From the IMG/VR virus record IMGVR_UViG_3300035698_002283, positions 1 to 46,053 of that record: a stretch of DNA of 46,053 nucleotides; one strand, 5' to 3'. The position numbers and the translations under genes were made by a program. Every line of letters begins with the position of its first letter. Positions within the stretch are counted from its first letter, which is position 1. Of the stretch, positions 5,284 to 45,780 are shown piece after piece. The notes below the pieces were generated by a model. The model was not told where the DNA came from. It searched no databases and worked only from the letters and a program-made list of their open reading frames with translations. The stretch is from a virus.

Positions 5284-5814
5284 ATGAATATATTAAAACG
5301 AATATTTAAAATAAGAGAGACCATACATTTAGATATTAAACGTGTTATTACAATGAAAAGTTTAGATACGGTTATCGAGAAACTGGAAAACGCTAACCCA
5401 TTACAGGATATTGTCTTGCATATATCTAGTGGTGGTGGTAGTTGTGCTTCAATGTATAGGTTAATGCTAGCGTTGAGATACACTAAAGCTACAGTACGTG
5501 CGAAGGTACGTGGTGATGCTTGTAGTGCGGCTGCTATGATCATGACCCAAGTAGAGAGTGTAGATATAGCTGATGATGCATCTATTATGTTTCATTATCC
5601 TAGAATAACATATCCGGATAACTCTGTCTGTATTATCGACCCTAGTGAAGTAGTAGCTGGTGAACGTGGTGGTGATATTCCATTCTTCCATGCAACGTTT
5701 GTCGCTTTAACCACTAAAGGGTTATTAACCACTGATGAGTTCTTTCAACTAAGTAACAAGAAGGATGTATACATCACGGGTTCAGAATATAATAAACGTA
5801 AGGAGGTAGCATAA
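5284..5814 (+). CDS. ClpP-like serine peptidase, paralogue 1
   Basis: 176 aa with the ClpP/crotonase-type fold. The strand and turn segment IVLHISSGGGSCASMY is at about residues 43-58. The catalytic Ser lies in DACSAAAMI (Ser81), His in IMFHYP (His104), and Asp in KKDVYITGSEY (Asp161), so all three triad residues are present. E. coli ClpP is about 207 aa, so this is shorter, with a reduced N-terminus. No Clp ATPase gene lies nearby, so it may work alone or mix with host ClpP or its unfoldases. It is the first gene after the main rightward promoter. It resembles the gene at 19616 most closely, both ending with an EYNKR motif. Confidence 0.85.
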   Translation: MNILKRIFKIRETIHLDIKRVITMKSLDTVIEKLENANPLQDIVLHISSGGGSCASMYRLMLALRYTKATVRAKVRGDACSAAAMIMTQVESVDIADDASIMFHYPRITYPDNSVCIIDPSEVVAGERGGDIPFFHATFVALTTKGLLTTDEFFQLSNKKDVYITGSEYNKRKEVA

Positions 5815-8303: not shown

Positions 8304-8588
8304 ATGAAATACAAACAACCTATAACAAAACAGGCGGAAGCATTAGATGCCGTAAGAGCATACTTCCGTGTCAATCGAGCCAGCGGATCAGCTATTGCGT
8401 TCCATCCATTACGAGATGCACATGGTGAACCAGATTGGGTAAGCTTGACGAACAGAGTGTTAGAGGGCTTCAATAGCAGCTCATTGTTTGAGAAGAGCAT
8501 TGATACTAACTATATCGAGGAGGATATCCTACTGAAGACAGTAGAGTTTTCTTATAAAGATCAGTATAACACAGGAGAAAGGAAATGA
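8304..8588 (+). CDS. Hypothetical 94-aa protein
   Basis: It starts shortly after the promoter at 8253 with AGGGAG before the ATG. It begins MKYKQPITKQAEALDAV and appears alpha/beta with no membrane span. Its stop overlaps the start of the second ClpP-like gene (ATGA), so the two are translationally coupled. It may be a partner or regulator of that peptidase, which is inference from position. Confidence 0.7.
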   Translation: MKYKQPITKQAEALDAVRAYFRVNRASGSAIAFHPLRDAHGEPDWVSLTNRVLEGFNSSSLFEKSIDTNYIEEDILLKTVEFSYKDQYNTGERK

Positions 8589-9229
8589 GTACATACAAAC
8601 CAGTACCACACATTCACGATGAGTTCGTGACTAAGGTCCAAGACGGCGAGGAGATTGTTAACGACATCTTCGACGAAGAGGACGCAGACGAGTTACAAGT
8701 ATTCAGTACTCCTAAAGGAGGCGTAACGCATAACATCTACCTAGGTACATCGGTCTTGTCATCTGATAAGTATTATAAACTATTTAATACATTAGCAGCT
8801 GCTGGTCCGGATGATGATTTTCGGGTTCATCTAAACAACTATGGTGGGTATGTCTCAGGAGGCACACAGCTGATGAATTCACTGCGTAGCACGAAAGGAC
8901 ACGTTAAGATGATCGTAGCCGGTCCTGTGTATAGCATGGCTTCTCTACTCGCAATCTGCGTAGAGGATGTCGAGATACATGACCATACCTTCCTTATGTT
9001 CCATGATTACAGTGGTGGCAGCGTTGGTAAGGGTGCTGAAATGATTCGAAGTGTTATTAGTTATAAAGCATACTTTGAGCAGGTGCTTAAGGATGTTGGT
9101 AAGGACTTCCTCACGAAGAAGGAGATTACAGACCTATATCATGGTGTCGATCTCTACGTAACAGCTGAGGATGCCAGAAAACGACTAGTGGCGAGAGCTA
9201 AGAAACGTAAAACAGGGGCAAAAAAATGA
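8585..9229 (+). CDS. ClpP-like serine peptidase, paralogue 2
   Basis: 214 aa, close to bacterial ClpP length. An acidic N-terminal part (about 1-45) precedes the core. VHLNNYGGYVSGGTQ is at about 81-95, the nucleophile in GPVYSMAS (Ser117), LMFHDYSGG (His140) and GVDLYVTAEDA (Asp189). The last segment matches the ClpP region around Asp171 (RDRFLSAPEA in E. coli), so the triad is complete. The C-terminus is very basic (AKKRKTGAKK). No prohead or capsid gene is near, so a maturation protease role is unlikely. It is coupled to the genes on both sides. Confidence 0.88.
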   Translation: MSTYKPVPHIHDEFVTKVQDGEEIVNDIFDEEDADELQVFSTPKGGVTHNIYLGTSVLSSDKYYKLFNTLAAAGPDDDFRVHLNNYGGYVSGGTQLMNSLRSTKGHVKMIVAGPVYSMASLLAICVEDVEIHDHTFLMFHDYSGGSVGKGAEMIRSVISYKAYFEQVLKDVGKDFLTKKEITDLYHGVDLYVTAEDARKRLVARAKKRKTGAKK

Positions 9230-13768: not shown

Positions 13769-15676
13769 ATGAGTAAATTATTAGCAAGATTAAAGACAGA
13801 GTTTGGAAACGACATCATTGAAGAAATGTCAATGAGTGACTACCTAGCTCTAGCTAAGAAAGATTCGACGGTTTATAGTAGTGCAGCTGAGAGGTTACTC
13901 AAAGCAATTGGCCCTGCTAAAATCTTGGAGACTAGAAACGATCCTAGATTAGGACGTATCTTTTCTAACCAACCAATTGAAACATTCAAACCTTTCGAGG
14001 ACTTCTATGGTATGGAGAAGACTATCTTACAGATTGTAGGCTTCTTACGACATGCGGCGCAAGGGTTAGAAGAAAAGAAACAAATACTATACCTCCTAGG
14101 TCCAGTCGGAGGAGGCAAATCCTCCTTGGCTGACCGCTTAAAGCATTTAATGGAGAAAGAGCCATTCTATGCGATAAAGGATTCACCAGTTTTTGAGTCA
14201 CCTTTAGGCTTCTTTGACGCAAATGATGCAAAGGAACTGGGCGTTCCCAGTAGATACTTGTCGGGTCATCCGTCACCATGGGCAATCAAGCGTTTAAGAG
14301 AAGCGAAAGGCGATTTATCTAAGTTAAAAGTAGTAAAGCTATACCCTAATGCACTCAAACAAATTGCTGTGTCTCGTACAGAGCCAGGCGATGAGAACAA
14401 CCAGGACATATCAGCTTTAGTAGGTAAACTAGACATCCGTAAGCTAGAAGACTATGCGCAGCATGATGCTGACGCTTATAGTTACAGCGGTGGGCTATGT
14501 TTAGGTAACCGAGGCATGTTAGAGTTTGTGGAGATGTTTAAGGCTCCGATTAAAACACTACATCCACTGCTTACTGCTACCCAAGAAGGGTTCTATAACG
14601 GAACGGAAGCAATCAGCGCGATCCCATTTGATGGTCTCGTAGTTGCTCACTCCAATGAATCAGAATGGGAAGCCTTTAAGAACAACCAAAAGAATGAGGC
14701 GTTTGTTGATAGGGTTAATATGATTAGGGTTCCTTACTGTCTGCGTAAGACAGAAGAAGTTTCAATCTATAGAAAACTATTAGATGGCAGTTCATTAGGG
14801 GATGCACCTTGTGCACCACGTACGCTAGAGACACTTGCAGAGTTCTGTGTATTGTCCAGGTTGGTACGACCAGAGAACAGCGATCTATTCGCTAAAATGA
14901 AGATTTATGACGGTGAGAACCTTAAAAACAAGGTTAAGTCATCTAAGAGTGTCGCGGAATTTACGAAGACCGCAGGACCTCTTGAAGGTTTTAGTGGAAT
15001 CTCTACGAGGTTCGCGTTTAAAATACTATCTAAGACATTTAATAGTATTCCCAATGAGATTGGTGCAGATCCTACCCTCCTATTTAGCACCTTAGCGGAG
15101 AGCATTCGACTCGAGCAATTTCAAGAGGAAACTATGGATAGTTACTTGGAAGTGCACGCGCACCTTGTAGAGGAGTACACTAAATTTTTAGACAGGGAGA
15201 TCAAGAAAGCGTACCTAGAGTCATATAGTGACTATGGTCAGAACATCTTTGATCGTTATATTAAATATGCAGAGTTTTGGTTAGATGATGAGGACTATCG
15301 TGATGAAGATAGTGGGGCATTGTTTGATTTAGAGCTATTAAACACTAAGCTGGCTGAGATTGAAAAGCCTGCGGGGGTTAGTAATGAGAAAGATTTCCGT
15401 AATGAAATCGTTAAGTACTGTCTTAAGTACAGGGCTTCTCATAAAGGTGATAACCCTACTTGGTCAAGTTACGCTAAGATGCGTGAAGTGATTGAGAAGA
15501 AGATCTTTACGAGCACTGACGAGTTGATCCCTATTATTTCATTCTCGGCCAAGGCTACGGAAGGGGACAAGAAGAAACATAGTGCGTTTGTTAAGCGAAT
15601 GATTGGGAACGGGTACACAGAGAAGCAAGTGCGACGAGTGTGTGAGTTCTATCTAATGGCTAAGCAGAACGGATAA
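13769..15676 (+). CDS. prkA: PrkA/YeaG-type AAA+ serine protein kinase
   Basis: 635 aa, almost the full length of E. coli YeaG (about 644 aa), and by eye strongly similar throughout. The N-terminal AAA+ domain has AAERLL, PFEDFYGME and Walker A GPVGGGKSS at residues 111-119. The central segment TEPGDENNQDISALVGK and MFKAPIKTLHPLLTATQEG follow. The C-terminal kinase-type domain has AYLESYSDYGQNIFDRY and EKPAGVSNEKDFRNEI. PrkA proteins phosphorylate host targets and control stationary-phase or starvation responses (YeaG in E. coli, PrkA in Bacillus). No truncation or frameshift is seen. It heads an operon with YeaH and SpoVR genes, as in bacteria, but sits inside the phage replication block. 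Confidence 0.95.
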   Translation: MSKLLARLKTEFGNDIIEEMSMSDYLALAKKDSTVYSSAAERLLKAIGPAKILETRNDPRLGRIFSNQPIETFKPFEDFYGMEKTILQIVGFLRHAAQGLEEKKQILYLLGPVGGGKSSLADRLKHLMEKEPFYAIKDSPVFESPLGFFDANDAKELGVPSRYLSGHPSPWAIKRLREAKGDLSKLKVVKLYPNALKQIAVSRTEPGDENNQDISALVGKLDIRKLEDYAQHDADAYSYSGGLCLGNRGMLEFVEMFKAPIKTLHPLLTATQEGFYNGTEAISAIPFDGLVVAHSNESEWEAFKNNQKNEAFVDRVNMIRVPYCLRKTEEVSIYRKLLDGSSLGDAPCAPRTLETLAEFCVLSRLVRPENSDLFAKMKIYDGENLKNKVKSSKSVAEFTKTAGPLEGFSGISTRFAFKILSKTFNSIPNEIGADPTLLFSTLAESIRLEQFQEETMDSYLEVHAHLVEEYTKFLDREIKKAYLESYSDYGQNIFDRYIKYAEFWLDDEDYRDEDSGALFDLELLNTKLAEIEKPAGVSNEKDFRNEIVKYCLKYRASHKGDNPTWSSYAKMREVIEKKIFTSTDELIPIISFSAKATEGDKKKHSAFVKRMIGNGYTEKQVRRVCEFYLMAKQNG

Positions 15677-15697
15677 CATTAAACTAGGGGTAGGAAG

Positions 15698-16945
15698 ATG
15701 AATATCATAGATAGCCGCAAAGGCGGTAGTAGAAGCGCGGACAGGAACCGTAAGAAGTTCCTAAGACGCAACAAGAAAGCAATTAAGAAGGCCGTACAGG
15801 ATGCTATCCAAGATTCTACGATAGCTGATGTCGGTAAGGGTGAAGTTGACGTGAACCTCGGTCGAGGCACAGACGAGCCTATGTTCAACCACCGTCCAGG
15901 CACAGGGGTTACCGATCAGGTACATCCCGGTAACGATCGATTCACAAGCGGTGATCAAGTTCCTCGCCCACAAGGTGGTCAGGGACAAGGTCCAGGGCAA
16001 GCCGGTAATAGTGGTGAAGGAGAAGACGAGTTTGTCTTCAGACTCTCATCTGAGGAATTCATGGATTATTTCATGGAAGATCTAGCTTTACCTAACTTAG
16101 CTAAGAAACAGCTTAGTGTCATCGAATCATTCAAGAAACAGAAGGCAGGCTTTAGCAATGAAGGATCACCTGGCTCTCTGAGTATCAACCGAACATTCAA
16201 GAATGCAGTAGGACGCCGTATTGGCCAAGCTGCTGCTGTTAGAAAACAAATCAAAGAACTAGAAGCTAAAGATCCTCGGACAGAAGAGGAAGAGAAGAAG
16301 CTTTTGTTTTTGCGAAAAAAAATCCGGAATCTGAGATTTATTGATGACCTGGACATTCGCTATGTGAGAACCGAGACCATCCCCGAAACTAAGGTGAACG
16401 CTGTGATGTTTTGCCTAATGGATGTGTCATACTCCATGGACGAAGAGCGTAAGGACTTAGCTAAACGATTCTATGTTCTATTACATATGTTCCTCCAGAG
16501 ATTCTATAACAAGGTAGATGTAGTGTTCGTAAGACATACACACGTTGCGTCTGAGGTCTCTGAACAAGAGTTCTTCCACGGCAAAGAGACTGGCGGCACA
16601 GTGGTGTCTACAGGGGTTGACTTGATCCGTAAGATTATCGATGAGAGATATCCAGAGAATGCGTGGAATATGTACTGCGCACAGGCCTCTGATGGAGATA
16701 ACTTCGAGAACGATGAGAATGCATTACGTGAGAGCCTTCATAAACTAATACCTAAGCTACAGTACTATGCTTATATAGATATCTTAGCGAACAAGTATTT
16801 TGGTATGTCAGGTGAGCCTTCTGAGTTATGGGGTTACTACGACGAGTTCTCCGATCAATACGATCACTTTGAGAGAGCTGCGATTCAAGGGTCAGAAGAT
16901 ATTTGGCCGGTATTCAGAGCATTATTCAAGAAGGGGGAGAAGTAA
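15698..16945 (+). CDS. yeaH: YeaH/YhbH family protein (DUF444), von Willebrand A-like
   Basis: 415 aa against about 427 in E. coli YeaH. A basic N-terminus (RNRKKFLRRNKKAIKK) comes first, then VHPGNDRF, a Gly/Gln/Pro-rich linker at about 91-107 and EDEFVF. A coiled region precedes the vWA-type domain. The metal-site motif is intact: DVSYS at about 242-246, TGGT, then ASDGDN. In bacteria YeaH is encoded next to and functions with YeaG/PrkA. GGGGTAGG precedes ATG 15698. The gene is complete. No enzymatic activity is established for the family. Confidence 0.95.
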   Translation: MNIIDSRKGGSRSADRNRKKFLRRNKKAIKKAVQDAIQDSTIADVGKGEVDVNLGRGTDEPMFNHRPGTGVTDQVHPGNDRFTSGDQVPRPQGGQGQGPGQAGNSGEGEDEFVFRLSSEEFMDYFMEDLALPNLAKKQLSVIESFKKQKAGFSNEGSPGSLSINRTFKNAVGRRIGQAAAVRKQIKELEAKDPRTEEEEKKLLFLRKKIRNLRFIDDLDIRYVRTETIPETKVNAVMFCLMDVSYSMDEERKDLAKRFYVLLHMFLQRFYNKVDVVFVRHTHVASEVSEQEFFHGKETGGTVVSTGVDLIRKIIDERYPENAWNMYCAQASDGDNFENDENALRESLHKLIPKLQYYAYIDILANKYFGMSGEPSELWGYYDEFSDQYDHFERAAIQGSEDIWPVFRALFKKGEK

Positions 16946-16946
16946 G

Positions 16947-18437
16947 ATGGGTAAGCCACTATATACAGATAATGAATGGAGCTTTGACGCACTAGAGAGA
17001 GTGTGGGATAAGATTGAAGAGATTGCTGAGGACAAGTACGACTTAACGTACTTCCCTGCTCAGTTTGAGATGATACCTTACGAAAGAATGCTTAATGTCT
17101 ATGCGACTGCTGGTCTCCCTAACATGTATCATCACTGGAGTCACGGGAAGTCATTCGTACAACACGAGAAGGGATATTTAGCAGGTCAAGAGAACTTAGC
17201 GTACGAGGTAGTTATTAATACTAACCCCTCTATTGCATACCTGATGGACAGTAATACTATGACGATGCAGACGCTAGTTATGGCCCATGCTTCTGTAGGT
17301 CACTCAAGTTTCTTTAAGCACAACAAGTTATTCCAAGAGCATACTGATCCTTCTAGTATTCTAGGGTTTCTAGAGTATGGTAAGGAGTACATGAAGCAGT
17401 GTGAGTTTAAATATGGGGAGGCGGAAGTCGAAAGAGTGCTAGATGCAGCACACGCCTTGAGGTTCTATGCGATTGATCGTTACAAGAAGCCTCAGATCTC
17501 ACGTAAGAAGCGTATGGAGAAAATGAGAGCTCAGAATAAAGAAACACAACAGTCTTTTAATCATGACCATTTCCAGATTAATAGTACGACCAGGAAAGAG
17601 CTTAAGTTTAAGAAGAGACCTCAATTACGTGAAGAGAATATACTCCGATACATTATGGATAACTCTCCTAACCTACCAGCGTGGAAGCGTGAGGTGTTAC
17701 GTATCGTGTGTGAAATCAATCAGTATCTATATCCACAAATGCACACACAGGTTATGAATGAAGGTTGGGCGTGCTTCTGGCATTATCACATCATGAATGA
17801 TTTAGAAGACGGTGGTCATCTACCTGAAGGAGCTATGTTTGAGTTCCTAGCATCACATACTGGTGTGGTAGCTCAACCGGCTTATAACAGCCCGTACTAC
17901 TCAGGAATCAACGTCTACGCCCTAGGGTTCAACATCATGATGGACATTAAACGTATCTGTCAAGATCCTACGGACGAAGATCGTGAATGGTTCCCTGATA
18001 TTGCAGGTAAAGACTGGCTACCAGTTATGAAAGAGATTGTCCAATTGTTTCGAGACGATTCATTCATCCAAACATATCTGTCTCCTAAGGTTATGAGAGA
18101 CATGGGACTATTTAATGTTTTAGATCATATCGAAGATGAGGAGCATTTAACTGTAACGTATATCCACGATGATGAAGGTTACAAAGCTGTGAGACAGAAA
18201 CTTTCAGAGCAGTATACCTTCTCTAATAACATCCCTGATATGTATGTGACAGGCCATGATATGCAAGGAGGCAGAGAACTAAGTATTACCCATAAAGAAC
18301 GGAATTATATAGGTCTTGACCGTAAGACAGCCATGCAGACATGTATACATATGAGAGAATTATGGGGCTATCCCGTGCATTTAGACATATTGTATACAGA
18401 TCGAACGGAAGGTGCTGAGGGGGTAATAATCCCATGA
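16947..18437 (+). CDS. spoVR: SpoVR/YcgB family protein
   Basis: 496 aa against about 510 in E. coli YcgB. Hallmark stretches are all present: YFPAQFEMIPYERML, HWSHGKSF, LAYEVVINTNPSIAYLM, MAHASVGHSSFFK, TQVMNEGWACFWHYHIMN, AYNSPYYSGINVYALGF and FPDIAGKDWL. The conserved His and Glu residues suggest a metal or hydrolase-like site. The start is ATG 16947 after GGGGGAGAAG, two bases after the YeaH stop. A longer frame to 16800 would lie inside the YeaH gene and is rejected. SpoVR affects spore cortex in Bacillus and stress traits elsewhere; its biochemistry is unsettled. Confidence 0.95.
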   Translation: MGKPLYTDNEWSFDALERVWDKIEEIAEDKYDLTYFPAQFEMIPYERMLNVYATAGLPNMYHHWSHGKSFVQHEKGYLAGQENLAYEVVINTNPSIAYLMDSNTMTMQTLVMAHASVGHSSFFKHNKLFQEHTDPSSILGFLEYGKEYMKQCEFKYGEAEVERVLDAAHALRFYAIDRYKKPQISRKKRMEKMRAQNKETQQSFNHDHFQINSTTRKELKFKKRPQLREENILRYIMDNSPNLPAWKREVLRIVCEINQYLYPQMHTQVMNEGWACFWHYHIMNDLEDGGHLPEGAMFEFLASHTGVVAQPAYNSPYYSGINVYALGFNIMMDIKRICQDPTDEDREWFPDIAGKDWLPVMKEIVQLFRDDSFIQTYLSPKVMRDMGLFNVLDHIEDEEHLTVTYIHDDEGYKAVRQKLSEQYTFSNNIPDMYVTGHDMQGGRELSITHKERNYIGLDRKTAMQTCIHMRELWGYPVHLDILYTDRTEGAEGVIIP

Positions 18438-19240: not shown

Positions 19241-19638
19241 GTTTAAAGTACGGGTTCCGTAGTGGCTTAGAAGAACGGGTATCACAACAGATATTCTTTG
19301 AAGGGACAATGTTCCAGTATGAGGGGATCAAGTTGCCTTTTGTCCAGCCCGAGAAGAATCGTAAGTATACACCAGACTTTACATTACGTAAGAAGGATGG
19401 TACAATGATGTATATAGAAACCAAGGGCCGGTTCGTAGTGCAAGATAGATTGAAGCACTTATTAATAAGAGAACAGTACCCGAAGTTAGATTTGAGGTTT
19501 GTCTTCACTAACCCTAACGGGAAGATAACGAAGACGAGTAAGACGACATATGCGATGTGGTGTGATAAGCACGGCTTCAGGTATGCAAAGGCGCTGATGC
19601 CTAGGGAGTGGTTAGATGAATTACAGACAATTATCTAG
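19216..19638 (+). CDS. T7 endonuclease I-like Holliday junction resolvase
   Basis: 140 aa from ATG 19216, chosen because GGAGAGGAGAG precedes it; an ATG at 19201 is less likely. FRSGLEE is at about 14-20, YTPDFTL at 51-57, YIETKG at 66-71 and HLLIREQYPKLDLR at 81-94, matching T7 gp3 (149 aa). The catalytic set Glu19, Asp54, Glu68 and Lys70 is intact. It resolves branched DNA and debranches concatemers before packaging. It overlaps both neighbours and ends with TAG. Confidence 0.95.
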   Translation: MAASNKAIGLKYGFRSGLEERVSQQIFFEGTMFQYEGIKLPFVQPEKNRKYTPDFTLRKKDGTMMYIETKGRFVVQDRLKHLLIREQYPKLDLRFVFTNPNGKITKTSKTTYAMWCDKHGFRYAKALMPREWLDELQTII

Positions 19639-20254
19639 AATCTCAGGAGCTATAATGATAGCCGTAGTGTTTGCCACAATGGGTGCACTGGATACTACGG
19701 TAGCAGTTAAGCCTACTGTGCATGGTAAGTTAGATACTACGGTATCAGTTAAGCTTTCCGTACAGAACAAGGTACTCGAGACCCGAGTGATTGAGGTCAA
19801 CCATAGGACAATGATGTACCCTATAGGTGTTGTTAGGTCTGCGGTAAAAGGAGACACGATCTCTTTCTTACTACACAGCCCAGGTGGTAACGTGTATGCT
19901 GGGTTCGGATTGATCGAGAGGATCTTAGAGACGAAAGCGAAGACTACGGGATACATCCCTGTATATTGTTATAGTATGTGTGCGATGATCTCTTTACATA
20001 TCGACAAAGTCAGACTAGCATCAAATGCTCAGATCATGTTCCACCTGTACGGCTATCAAGGGTACAAAGCAAAGCCTGGAACGTGGTTATCAAAGATTGA
20101 CCCATCAATGAATACCTACTTCATCGAGACGTTTAAACTCATGAAGAAACAGGGCTTGTTGACAGACCTAGAATATCGTGGTATTATAAAGGGGTATGAT
20201 ATATATATAGACGGTAAAGAGTATAACAAAAGACTAGCGAGGATAGGAAAGTAA
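19616..20254 (+). CDS. ClpP-like serine peptidase, paralogue 3, with N-terminal hydrophobic helix
   Basis: 212 aa. Residues about 9-24 (ISGAIMIAVVFATMGA) form a hydrophobic helix, either a signal peptide or an anchor. Then come two 14-residue near-repeats beginning LDTTVAVK and LDTTVSVK (about 25-52). The ClpP core follows, with LLHSPGGNVYAG at 85-96, Ser120 in CYSMCAM, His143 in IMFHLYG and Asp195 in GYDIYIDGKEY; the triad is complete. GGGAG precedes ATG 19616, which overlaps the endonuclease gene. It is closest to paralogue 1. A membrane or periplasmic peptidase is suggested by the N-terminus. Confidence 0.85.
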   Translation: MNYRQLSRISGAIMIAVVFATMGALDTTVAVKPTVHGKLDTTVSVKLSVQNKVLETRVIEVNHRTMMYPIGVVRSAVKGDTISFLLHSPGGNVYAGFGLIERILETKAKTTGYIPVYCYSMCAMISLHIDKVRLASNAQIMFHLYGYQGYKAKPGTWLSKIDPSMNTYFIETFKLMKKQGLLTDLEYRGIIKGYDIYIDGKEYNKRLARIGK

Positions 20255-42411: not shown

Positions 42412-43884
42412 TTAGTAACCTGTTATGTTGTCCTTACCAGTTAATTCCGGTGGCATTTCATTTTCGTCATCGTCATATTGTGGTTCTGACTCTGCTCTAT
42501 CTAACCCTGACATTATCAAGTATCGTGTCGCATCCATTAAATGGTCGTTATTCTTTACGATCTTTCCTTTGTCATCCCTACGGTATACCCTAAACTCTTC
42601 TAACCACTTCTGGCAATTGCTGAAGACTTTAAGCCTGCCTGAGCTTAGTCTCTGCCAGACAGTAAGTAATCCTGATTCAACCAATGTACGCTCGGCGCTA
42701 CAAATGTCTAAACCTAAGATATAGTAATCATCGATAAGTCTTGCGCCATCCTTCTGACTTCGTCCTTCAGACGCTGGGTCAATAACTCCTGGGATCCACT
42801 TGCCCCGTGCTTTAATAGCATCGGCGTGGATTGAAGGCTCTGCTTGGCCTCTATAGTGTTCTGAGTATAGATATACTACATCACTCTCTTTATCGTATGC
42901 AGCCCATATAACTGCTGTCTTATTCCAGCCTACGTCCATTCCGTATGCTCGTGGCCAGCTTGCCGGTATCTCGAATGGATCTACGATTACTTCAGACTCT
43001 GGTACTGGGTATATGGCACCTGATCCTAATTGTGGTATACCTCTACTCCGTGCTTCTGCCTCGTGGGGTGAGAAGGACGCTAAGAGCATCTTTTTCTGAT
43101 CTTCTTTAATATGTGCTGTATCTTCCCAAGACGCCATTACAACGTATTTACTTGGATTCATTCCTGGTATCTTAGATGGTACTATACCACCTGCCGGTCG
43201 CTTACCTCCTGGTAGGAAGTTCAATACAACCTCAGATAGACCTTTAAGAGGGGTGAATGTGCAATAAATGATACCTTCCGTTGTCATTGTTCTTGTTAAG
43301 GCTTCAGAATATATATTAGATTGTTCCATCTCCTCATCGAACCATACGACGTGTCGGCTAGTACCCATGAATGAGTCCATTCCCTGTACATATGATTTAA
43401 AACCTAGTTGACTCGTACCACCGGTTACATGTTTTACGTATAAATCCTGAACTGCGTCTGTGACACCTGCTCGGGATGTAGTCCGTACAATAGCGTCCTT
43501 TGGTATCATACCAGTGCCATATTCGCCTCGACGGCCTAATAGCTCCATCTGGATTACGTCACGTGTTGTTTCATTCGTTATCCCGGCTGCCCATGCTGTG
43601 ATAGGCTGTTCGAATCGTCGTCCTTCCCACCAGTGAGGATAATTACCGGTTAAGTGGCATACCATTTCGTATGCTCCTGCTACGGTCTTGCCTGACCTAT
43701 TAGCAGCTATAAAGGCGCGTTCCTTGTACTTTGCTCCCGCTGCGAAGAACTCCAAGTGTTTCGGGTACTTATCACGCGCAAATTCTCCCTCATCTGGGAA
43801 GAAGCCTTTATTCTTGTTTTCTTTGGTTCTACGTTCCTTTTCAGCTACAGCCTTAAGTAATTGTATCTTCGTCTCCCGATCCAT
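42412..43884 (-). CDS. terL: Terminase large subunit
   Basis: 490 aa. The ATPase domain has Walker A AANRSGKT at about 60-67 and Walker B VVWFDEEM at about 179-186. The nuclease domain has YGMDVGWN (Asp317), VIDPASEG (Asp369) and DHLMDATRY (Asp451), three acidic metal ligands. It cuts and pumps DNA into the prohead with the portal and TerS. It overlaps TerS by 32 bases and precedes the portal. Complete. Confidence 0.95.
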   Translation of the reverse strand: MDRETKIQLLKAVAEKERRTKENKNKGFFPDEGEFARDKYPKHLEFFAAGAKYKERAFIAANRSGKTVAGAYEMVCHLTGNYPHWWEGRRFEQPITAWAAGITNETTRDVIQMELLGRRGEYGTGMIPKDAIVRTTSRAGVTDAVQDLYVKHVTGGTSQLGFKSYVQGMDSFMGTSRHVVWFDEEMEQSNIYSEALTRTMTTEGIIYCTFTPLKGLSEVVLNFLPGGKRPAGGIVPSKIPGMNPSKYVVMASWEDTAHIKEDQKKMLLASFSPHEAEARSRGIPQLGSGAIYPVPESEVIVDPFEIPASWPRAYGMDVGWNKTAVIWAAYDKESDVVYLYSEHYRGQAEPSIHADAIKARGKWIPGVIDPASEGRSQKDGARLIDDYYILGLDICSAERTLVESGLLTVWQRLSSGRLKVFSNCQKWLEEFRVYRRDDKGKIVKNNDHLMDATRYLIMSGLDRAESEPQYDDDENEMPPELTGKDNITGY

Positions 43885-45558: not shown

Positions 45559-45658
45559 TGGTGGAAGTGGCGGGTTTCGCTCCCGCGTCCTACTAAGTCA
45601 TTGCTGTATTCACTTGTGCATTTATAAGCCACTTAATAGTCGAATCTAGTACACCCCC
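45559..45658 (-). ncRNA. ssrA-like: tmRNA-like RNA lacking a tag-coding domain
   Basis: 100 nt. The 5' GGGGGTG (45658-45652) pairs over 7 bp with CACTTCC (45569-45563), keeping a G3-U70 wobble as in alanine tRNA and tmRNA, followed by A and encoded CCA (45559-45562). AGATTCGAC after the acceptor matches the tmRNA 5' signature. GGACGCGGG, a 7-base loop (AGCGAAA) and CCCGCC match the tmRNA T-arm. CTATTAAGT and ACTTAGTAG form a 9-bp P2-type helix capped by about 32 bases. The pseudoknots and tag frame of normal tmRNA (about 360 nt) are absent. The T-loop departs from TTC at its first bases. Confidence 0.8.
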
Positions 45659-45661
45659 AGT

Positions 45662-45745
45662 GTACAATTAAAAATGAGAGAGCTTCTAACGTCCAGCTTC
45701 TAAATTTCAAAGAGTCTTGTCCCTAGAATGCTTCTCTCACCTTGT
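45662..45745 (-). ncRNA. Leader RNA or small RNA ahead of the tmRNA-like gene
   Basis: From the likely start near 45745, GTGAGAGAAGC can pair with GCTCTCTCAT around a loop of about 45 bases, followed by TTTTTAATT. This looks like a small RNA with a terminator, or a 5' leader removed by processing. TTAGAAGCT occurs in part twice in the loop. A further hairpin, GTACAC/GTGTAC, overlaps the first bases of the tmRNA-like RNA. Confidence 0.45.
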
Positions 45746-45751
45746 AGCTAT

Positions 45752-45780
45752 ATTATAACACCTTTTGTAGGCCTTGTCAA
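45752..45780 (-). promoter_or_regulatory. Consensus sigma70 promoter for the tmRNA-like RNA and late arm
   Basis: On the minus strand TTGACA (45775-45780) and TATAAT (45752-45757) have the ideal 17-base spacing, with TGT before the -10. It is the only strong promoter I see ahead of the late genes, so it may drive the RNA and, by read-through, holin to fibre genes. Confidence 0.92.

Follow-up and report, generated by a model that had tools for sequence, protein, structure and literature searches.

The locus

The window, i.e. the whole stretch of DNA analysed, is a virus record of 46,053 bp (IMG/VR IMGVR_UViG_3300035698_002283, positions 1 to 46,053). On its minus strand, with the 5' end at 45658, lies a mini-tmRNA of 100 nt, which comprises both ends of a tmRNA in the standard order. 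An earlier note on this DNA had placed it correctly at 45559-45658 and gave no strand, which is (-). The features of the locus are listed below, RNA position p corresponding to window position 45659-p.

45752..45780 (-), extended sigma-70-type promoter of perfect consensus (12/12 match, TG before the -10 box)
45670..45747 (-), presumed transcribed leader, a predicted long hairpin and then UUUUUAAUU (precursor fold)
45559..45658 (-), message-less tmRNA (mini-tmRNA), 100 nt (RF00023, dedicated model R2, fold)
45652..45658 (-), acceptor stem 5' strand GGGGGUG, with G3 of the G3-U70 pair (Rfam match, fold, family alignment)
45639..45644 (-), TTCGAC, the D-domain signature, whose final C opens P2 (Rfam match)
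45631..45639 (-), P2 5' strand CUAUUAAGU (fold, family alignment)
45599..45630 (-), apical part of 32 nt in place of PK1, the tag frame and PK2-4 (Rfam match, fold)
45590..45598 (-), P2 3' strand ACUUAGUAG, whose final G is the first G of GGAC (fold, family alignment)
45570..45586 (-), T-arm GCGGG-AGCGAAA-CCCGC with an unusual T-loop (Rfam match, fold, elbow comparison)
45563..45569 (-), acceptor stem 3' strand CACUUCC, with U70 (Rfam match, family alignment)
45559..45562 (-), encoded A73-CCA (sequence, Rfam match)

The promoter, TTGACA-17-TATAAT at 45780-45752 (-), stops ca. 94 nt before the mature 5' end and is, as a consensus match, as perfect as had been claimed, with an extended -10 box. 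It is one of six perfect TTGACA/TATAAT sites in the window, at 1131(-), 4650(-), 5192(-), 8253(+), 21903(+), and 45780(-). The leader would be expected to be removed by processing. An inverted repeat, GTACAC/GTGTAC (window 45645-45670), spans the mature 5' end, and through it the leader of the precursor could pair with the acceptor strand.

The tmRNA signatures, the 7-bp acceptor with G3-U70, the CCA end, and the 9-bp P2, all named in the earlier note, are present in the Rfam match and in the fold. The acceptor GGGGGUG/CACUUCC contains G1-C72, G2-C71, and G3-U70, as well as G4-U69; P2 (CUAUUAAGU/ACUUAGUAG) has one G-U pair and abuts both TTCGAC and GGAC; the T-stem GCGGG/CCCGC is of 5 bp and is followed by the encoded ACCA. 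In the fold all pairs of the acceptor, P2, and the T-stem are intact (21/21). PK1, the resume codon, the tag frame with its stop, and PK2-4 are absent from the RNA; the region of about 32 bases said to replace the tag and pseudoknots measures 32 nt in the fold, and this apical part (GCACAAGTGAA) resembles the apical core of the relatives (GCCACAAGTGGA in L126). Since its plain folding energy does not stand out (z -1.25), the case for the RNA is one of signature and covariation, not of stability.

Identification by covariance models

The covariance-model check proposed in the earlier note was run. Rfam model RF00023 (tmRNA) matches the RNA end to end (model 1-374, 38.9 bits, E 4e-13) with the whole middle deleted, which is below the cut-off of 47 bits. 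RF00023 also gives ordinary tRNA-sized matches of up to 39.6 bits, so that Rfam alone does not settle the identity of the RNA, and for this reason a dedicated model, R2, was built from 10 other mini-tmRNAs with the window RNA left out. R2 gives the window RNA 43.1 bits (E 2e-8), which is above its background, though not far above: tRNAs reach at most ca. 35 bits, except for a 74-nt tRNA-like match, L217, at 39.8, and a tmRNA 3' end in one named phage reaches 37.9 bits. ARAGORN finds neither a tRNA nor a tmRNA in the window RNA, and the mitochondrial tmRNA model RF02544 does not match it. The identity as a tmRNA was decided by the closed 9-bp P2 between TTCGAC and GGAC together with the lack of a cloverleaf.

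Two other assignments were rejected. For a tRNA-Ala, neither a D-arm nor an anticodon arm is found, ARAGORN makes no call, and R2 separates the RNA from nearly all tRNAs. For a permuted or two-piece tmRNA (RF04321), the match is only partial (E 0.35) and the order of the parts is the standard one. That the RNA is an attP site or an integration remnant of a host ssrA is hardly credible: ssrA is indeed an integration site for many phages, which then carry its 3' end, but here a closed P2 connects both tmRNA ends, the window contains neither a Pfam integrase (PF00589) nor a resolvase (PF00239), and in Mycobacterium phages Niklas and Validus the tmRNA 3' ends beside a tyrosine integrase obtain no more than 17.5 and 15.1 bits, respectively, with R2.

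Five relatives were also compared with RF00023; L126, Streptomyces phage Shaeky, L329, and L333 match over its full length with scores above the cut-off (53.8-70.8 bits), and L425 remains at 43. A further member of 125 nt, L055 (1727-1851), scores 70.6 bits, above the cut-off; to the eye, its apical part might still fold a PK1-like pseudoknot. BLAST searches of named phages with the window RNA or with its flanks gave no relevant match.

A family of viral mini-tmRNAs

Pattern scans of viral contigs and bacterial genomes, followed by a structural filter, revealed a large and for the most part unannotated family of mini-tmRNAs at ca. 147 places, mostly in viral contigs, with 110 distinct sequences in ca. 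80 clusters (before L425 was added, 146 places with 109 distinct sequences, which form 79 clusters at 85% identity). The patterns fix TTCGAC, GGAC, CCA, and usually TTCGA; those letters are thus conserved in part by construction, and all counts are minimum values. In the filter, G3-U70 earned a small bonus but was not required. The filter passed L055 only among the 79 matches of the first pattern scan, while the scan of bacterial genomes yielded 50 matches with six true mini-tmRNAs, most of the others being the 3' portion of a full-length tmRNA with TTCGAC present by chance.

The members are 64-140 nt long, with a peak at 80-84 nt, and fall into three size classes. In the shortest (64-69 nt) P2 is capped by a short loop; in that of 74-92 nt, comprising most members, P2 is topped by a small apical part or by a hairpin, and a core resembling AAAGCCGCAYGCGGA is frequent; the longer forms (97-140 nt) include the window RNA.

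Unannotated copies are found in isolated phages too. Streptomyces phage Shaeky has one at 42932-43013 of MT701595.1 (80.7 bits), and Streptomyces phage Alone3 one at 18155-18234 of OR725492.1 (58.6 bits), with mismatches in P2 and the T-stem; judging from its sequence, the latter is probably a family member and possibly a degenerate one. Unannotated tmRNA 3' ends in other named phages, among them Alcaligenes QDWS595, Acinetobacter BUCT628, Xanthomonas Rb1 and X1, Gordonia GMA2, and Ruegeria RpAliso, do not exceed 37.9 bits with R2 and were left uncounted, and L233, a tRNA, was removed from the family.

The family is largely invisible to ARAGORN. It is worth adding that ARAGORN calls tmRNAs of 324-343 nt with odd tags in L123, L131, L138, L161, and L170, whose 3' end is that common to the mini-tmRNAs; these are probably miscalls with a false 5' half.

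Conservation of the helices and absence of a message

The acceptor, P2, and T helices covary strongly across the family. In a set of 40 distinct sequences the structure is 96% paired and single positions show as many as six pair types, and pairs of P2 and the T-stem show at least four pair types and are formed in up to 40 of the 40 sequences. A second set, of 60 distinct sequences, has 94.6% of its cells paired and a covariation score of 0.62 versus 0.14 when shuffled (0/500); the same structure slid along the alignment scores at most 0.13. The pairings of the acceptor, T-arm, and P2, on whose presence in relatives the earlier note had staked its reading, are therefore kept in both sets. Moreover, an uninterrupted P2 averages 5.5 bp, as against 0.6 bp with the middle shuffled. 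The G3-U70 pair occurs in 39 of 39 distinct sequences, nearly all of which came from scans with no requirement for U70, while acceptor pairs 4-6 vary. Such complete keeping suggests that charging matters in nature, and would allow for an active acceptor role.

The window RNA does contain a frame running from a GCN codon to a stop, namely GCA CAA GUG AAU ACA GCA AUG ACU UAG (AQVNTAMT, 8 codons), in the apical part and P2, which could make it a working miniature tmRNA with a very short tag. This is very improbable. Frames of this type occur in 20 of 100 short members versus 20.5 +/- 4.1 in shuffles, so that chance gives one in about a fifth of the members; the 64-69-nt class, with only a short loop on P2, has no room for a tag; and in the window RNA the frame would start only ca. 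10 nt from P2, without PK1 or a linker.

The altered elbow of the window copy

The T-loop of the window RNA is AGCGAAA instead of TTCGANN and its D-loop, TACTAGA, lacks GG, so the canonical elbow is not found, while 106 of the 110 family members combine GG in the D-loop with a TT T-loop (most scans having demanded TTCGA). The only other member whose T-loop does not start with TT is L425 (4865-4961), with G at position 2 (TGCGAAT) and the D-loop AATTAGA, which shares AGATTCGAC with that of the window RNA and likewise lacks GG. L425 lies just upstream of large-terminase-like and portal-like genes, as does the RNA in the window (the L425 genes being named from sequence and order), and no BLASTP-detectable similarity was found between its proteins and those of the window.

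These departures bear on whether the window copy is a relic in decay, derived in this phage from a functional mini-tmRNA or a captured ssrA gene. Its R2 score (43.1 bits) is lower than that of most relatives, both loops depart from the consensus, and no RNA homologue was found near 42 TerL-related loci in the stretches examined. Against decay stand the 21 intact pairs, the perfect promoter, and L425, in which the elbow is changed on both sides in a locus without detectable protein similarity to the window. The joint change suggests adjustment more than decay, albeit from two cases, which are few, and we consider the relic improbable.

Known message-less tmRNAs

According to the earlier note, reduced tmRNAs without a reading frame were known only from some mitochondria, which is wrong: a "TLD only" ssrA has been published for one phage, mycobacteriophage DS6A (Hudson 2014 PMC4131195; PMC11915505), and CDS-less forms of ca. 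65 bp occur in plastids of Mallomonadaceae (PMC11915505). In the tmRNA database of 2025, CDS-less genes of standard order number 9 of 97,179 (PMC11915505). The TLD is established as the part charged by AlaRS and bound by EF-Tu and SmpB (PMC8012679). The published accounts describe a DS6A-like TLD-only RNA as strongly inhibiting tmRNA whether charged or not, perhaps by SmpB titration (PMC4131195 citing Mao 2009; PMC11915505).

The DS6A ssrA, like the window RNA, is phage-encoded, has both tmRNA ends in the standard order, and has no tag CDS. The window RNA differs from it, as far as the DS6A RNA is described, in its 9-bp P2, the 32-nt apical part, and the altered elbow; in addition, the published accounts concern one phage, while the family found here comprises ca. 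80 sequence clusters. With the standard tmRNA (RF00023) the window RNA shares the acceptor with G3-U70, TTCGAC, P2, GGAC, the T-arm, and CCA; the standard RNA, however, is of ca. 360 nt and contains PK1, the resume codon, the tag frame and stop, and PK2-4, all lacking from the ca. 100 nt of the window RNA. Full-length phage tmRNAs, such as that of mycobacteriophage Bxz1 and those of Streptomyces phages with the tag ANSKFAFALAA, are phage ssrA genes with a tag, unlike the mini-tmRNAs. Mitochondrial tmRNAs of jakobids and oomycetes (RF02544) also have no tag reading frame, but their genes are usually permuted. The plastid form, likened here by its description, resembles in size the 64-69-nt viral class and is organellar, not viral.

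Molecules of this kind have thus been described before, in DS6A, in plastids, and in mitochondria, where they are mostly permuted (PMC4131195, PMC11915505). As far as the searched literature shows, its breadth in phages, the conservation and covariation, the apical core, the setting in tRNA arrays, and the elbow variant appear to be new, and what was a single published phage case becomes a recurrent viral RNA family.

Genomic context and proposed function

Trans-translation is near-universal in bacteria. The window RNA may be understood as a phage tmRNA of which the tRNA-like domain and P2 are left, without a message, which would be charged by the host AlaRS, carried by the host SmpB and EF-Tu, and compete with the host tmRNA; we hold this reading, drawn from sequence, with somewhat better than even confidence. 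In the proposed course of events, the perfect promoter would drive transcription and the leader would be trimmed. Host AlaRS would then add alanine by virtue of G3-U70 and A73, as the conserved letters indicate, and SmpB and EF-Tu would be bound through the D-domain, T-arm, and P2, as the conserved signatures do. The partner SmpB is taken to be that of the host, since a search of 50 viral records (many of them fragments) for SmpB was negative, the control being positive in 10 bacteria. Next, the RNA would compete with the host tmRNA by occupying SmpB or the vacant A-site of non-stop ribosomes, for which there is the published precedent. As it has no resume codon or tag frame, tagging would be blocked and proteins from stalled ribosomes would not be marked for proteolysis, the net effect being a dominant-negative brake on trans-translation during infection. 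Competition for SmpB and stalled ribosomes would be the simplest mechanism, and the family of viral RNAs as a whole probably jams or diverts the host rescue system. The decoy put forward in the earlier note remains the best reading, in which charging, SmpB binding, and inhibition are all predicted from sequence features. For this phage in particular, the altered elbow and the lack of a homologue at the 42 TerL-related loci could mean that its copy is weakened.

In four of the five bacterial assemblies with a mini-tmRNA a full-length tmRNA is present as well, so that the mini-tmRNA is an addition there; the remaining one is a single-cell assembly of Prochlorococcus, and IMG/VR lists the contig in question as viral. 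In one Bacillota metagenome assembly with a full-length tmRNA, two different mini-tmRNAs lie on two contigs (L265:2879-2958 and L274:895-974).

If the RNA were purely a decoy, the conservation of G3-U70 would have no explanation, since charging was not needed for inhibition in the published test. Another possibility is that the charged RNA enters the stalled ribosome with SmpB, the nascent chain is accepted on its alanine, and after translocation another factor (ArfA/RF2, ArfB or similar) empties the ribosome, now devoid of a message, tag-and-destroy being replaced by release of an untagged product with one extra alanine. The strict keeping of G3-U70 and A73 would then have a reason that a mere decoy lacks. 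The genomic setting is also that of a translation aid: a tRNA gene is found no more than 300 nt away for 31 of 109 distinct copies (ca. 28%) versus 7 of 138 random points in control contigs, and in L146, L173, L177, and L178 the mini-tmRNA sits inside arrays of 20-33 tRNAs, where it does not replace tRNA-Ala, as the arrays include one. The tRNA-gene proximity of many relatives would fit a translation helper equally well. Furthermore, CDS-less mitochondrial tmRNA is conserved together with SmpB and has been suggested by others to still help (PMC11915505). On the other hand, no known step frees the ribosome after transfer to a message-less TLD, and the published TLD-only molecule inhibits the system; rescue of this type is unlikely for the window RNA, though the likeliest of the alternatives to the decoy. 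A broader proposal, that phages of many kinds use charged message-less tmRNAs for rescue by peptide acceptance without a template, within a translation kit with tRNA arrays and not only as decoys, is also doubtful.

With this family it can be tested directly whether ribosome rescue is shut down or re-routed by phages, and the question arises of why alanylation identity is kept though the published inhibitor needs no charging.

Other genes of the window

Genes for a PrkA kinase, a DUF444 protein (YeaH-type), and a SpoVR protein (YcgB-type) lie in a row at 13769-18437 (+), which we take to be a phage-borne version of the yeaG-yeaH-ycgB stress operon. The window also codes for three ClpP-fold serine protease-like proteins (5284-5814, 8585-9229, and 19616-20254, all (+)), two of them above the Pfam CLP_protease cut-off; these are of interest because SsrA-tagged proteins are degraded by ClpXP.
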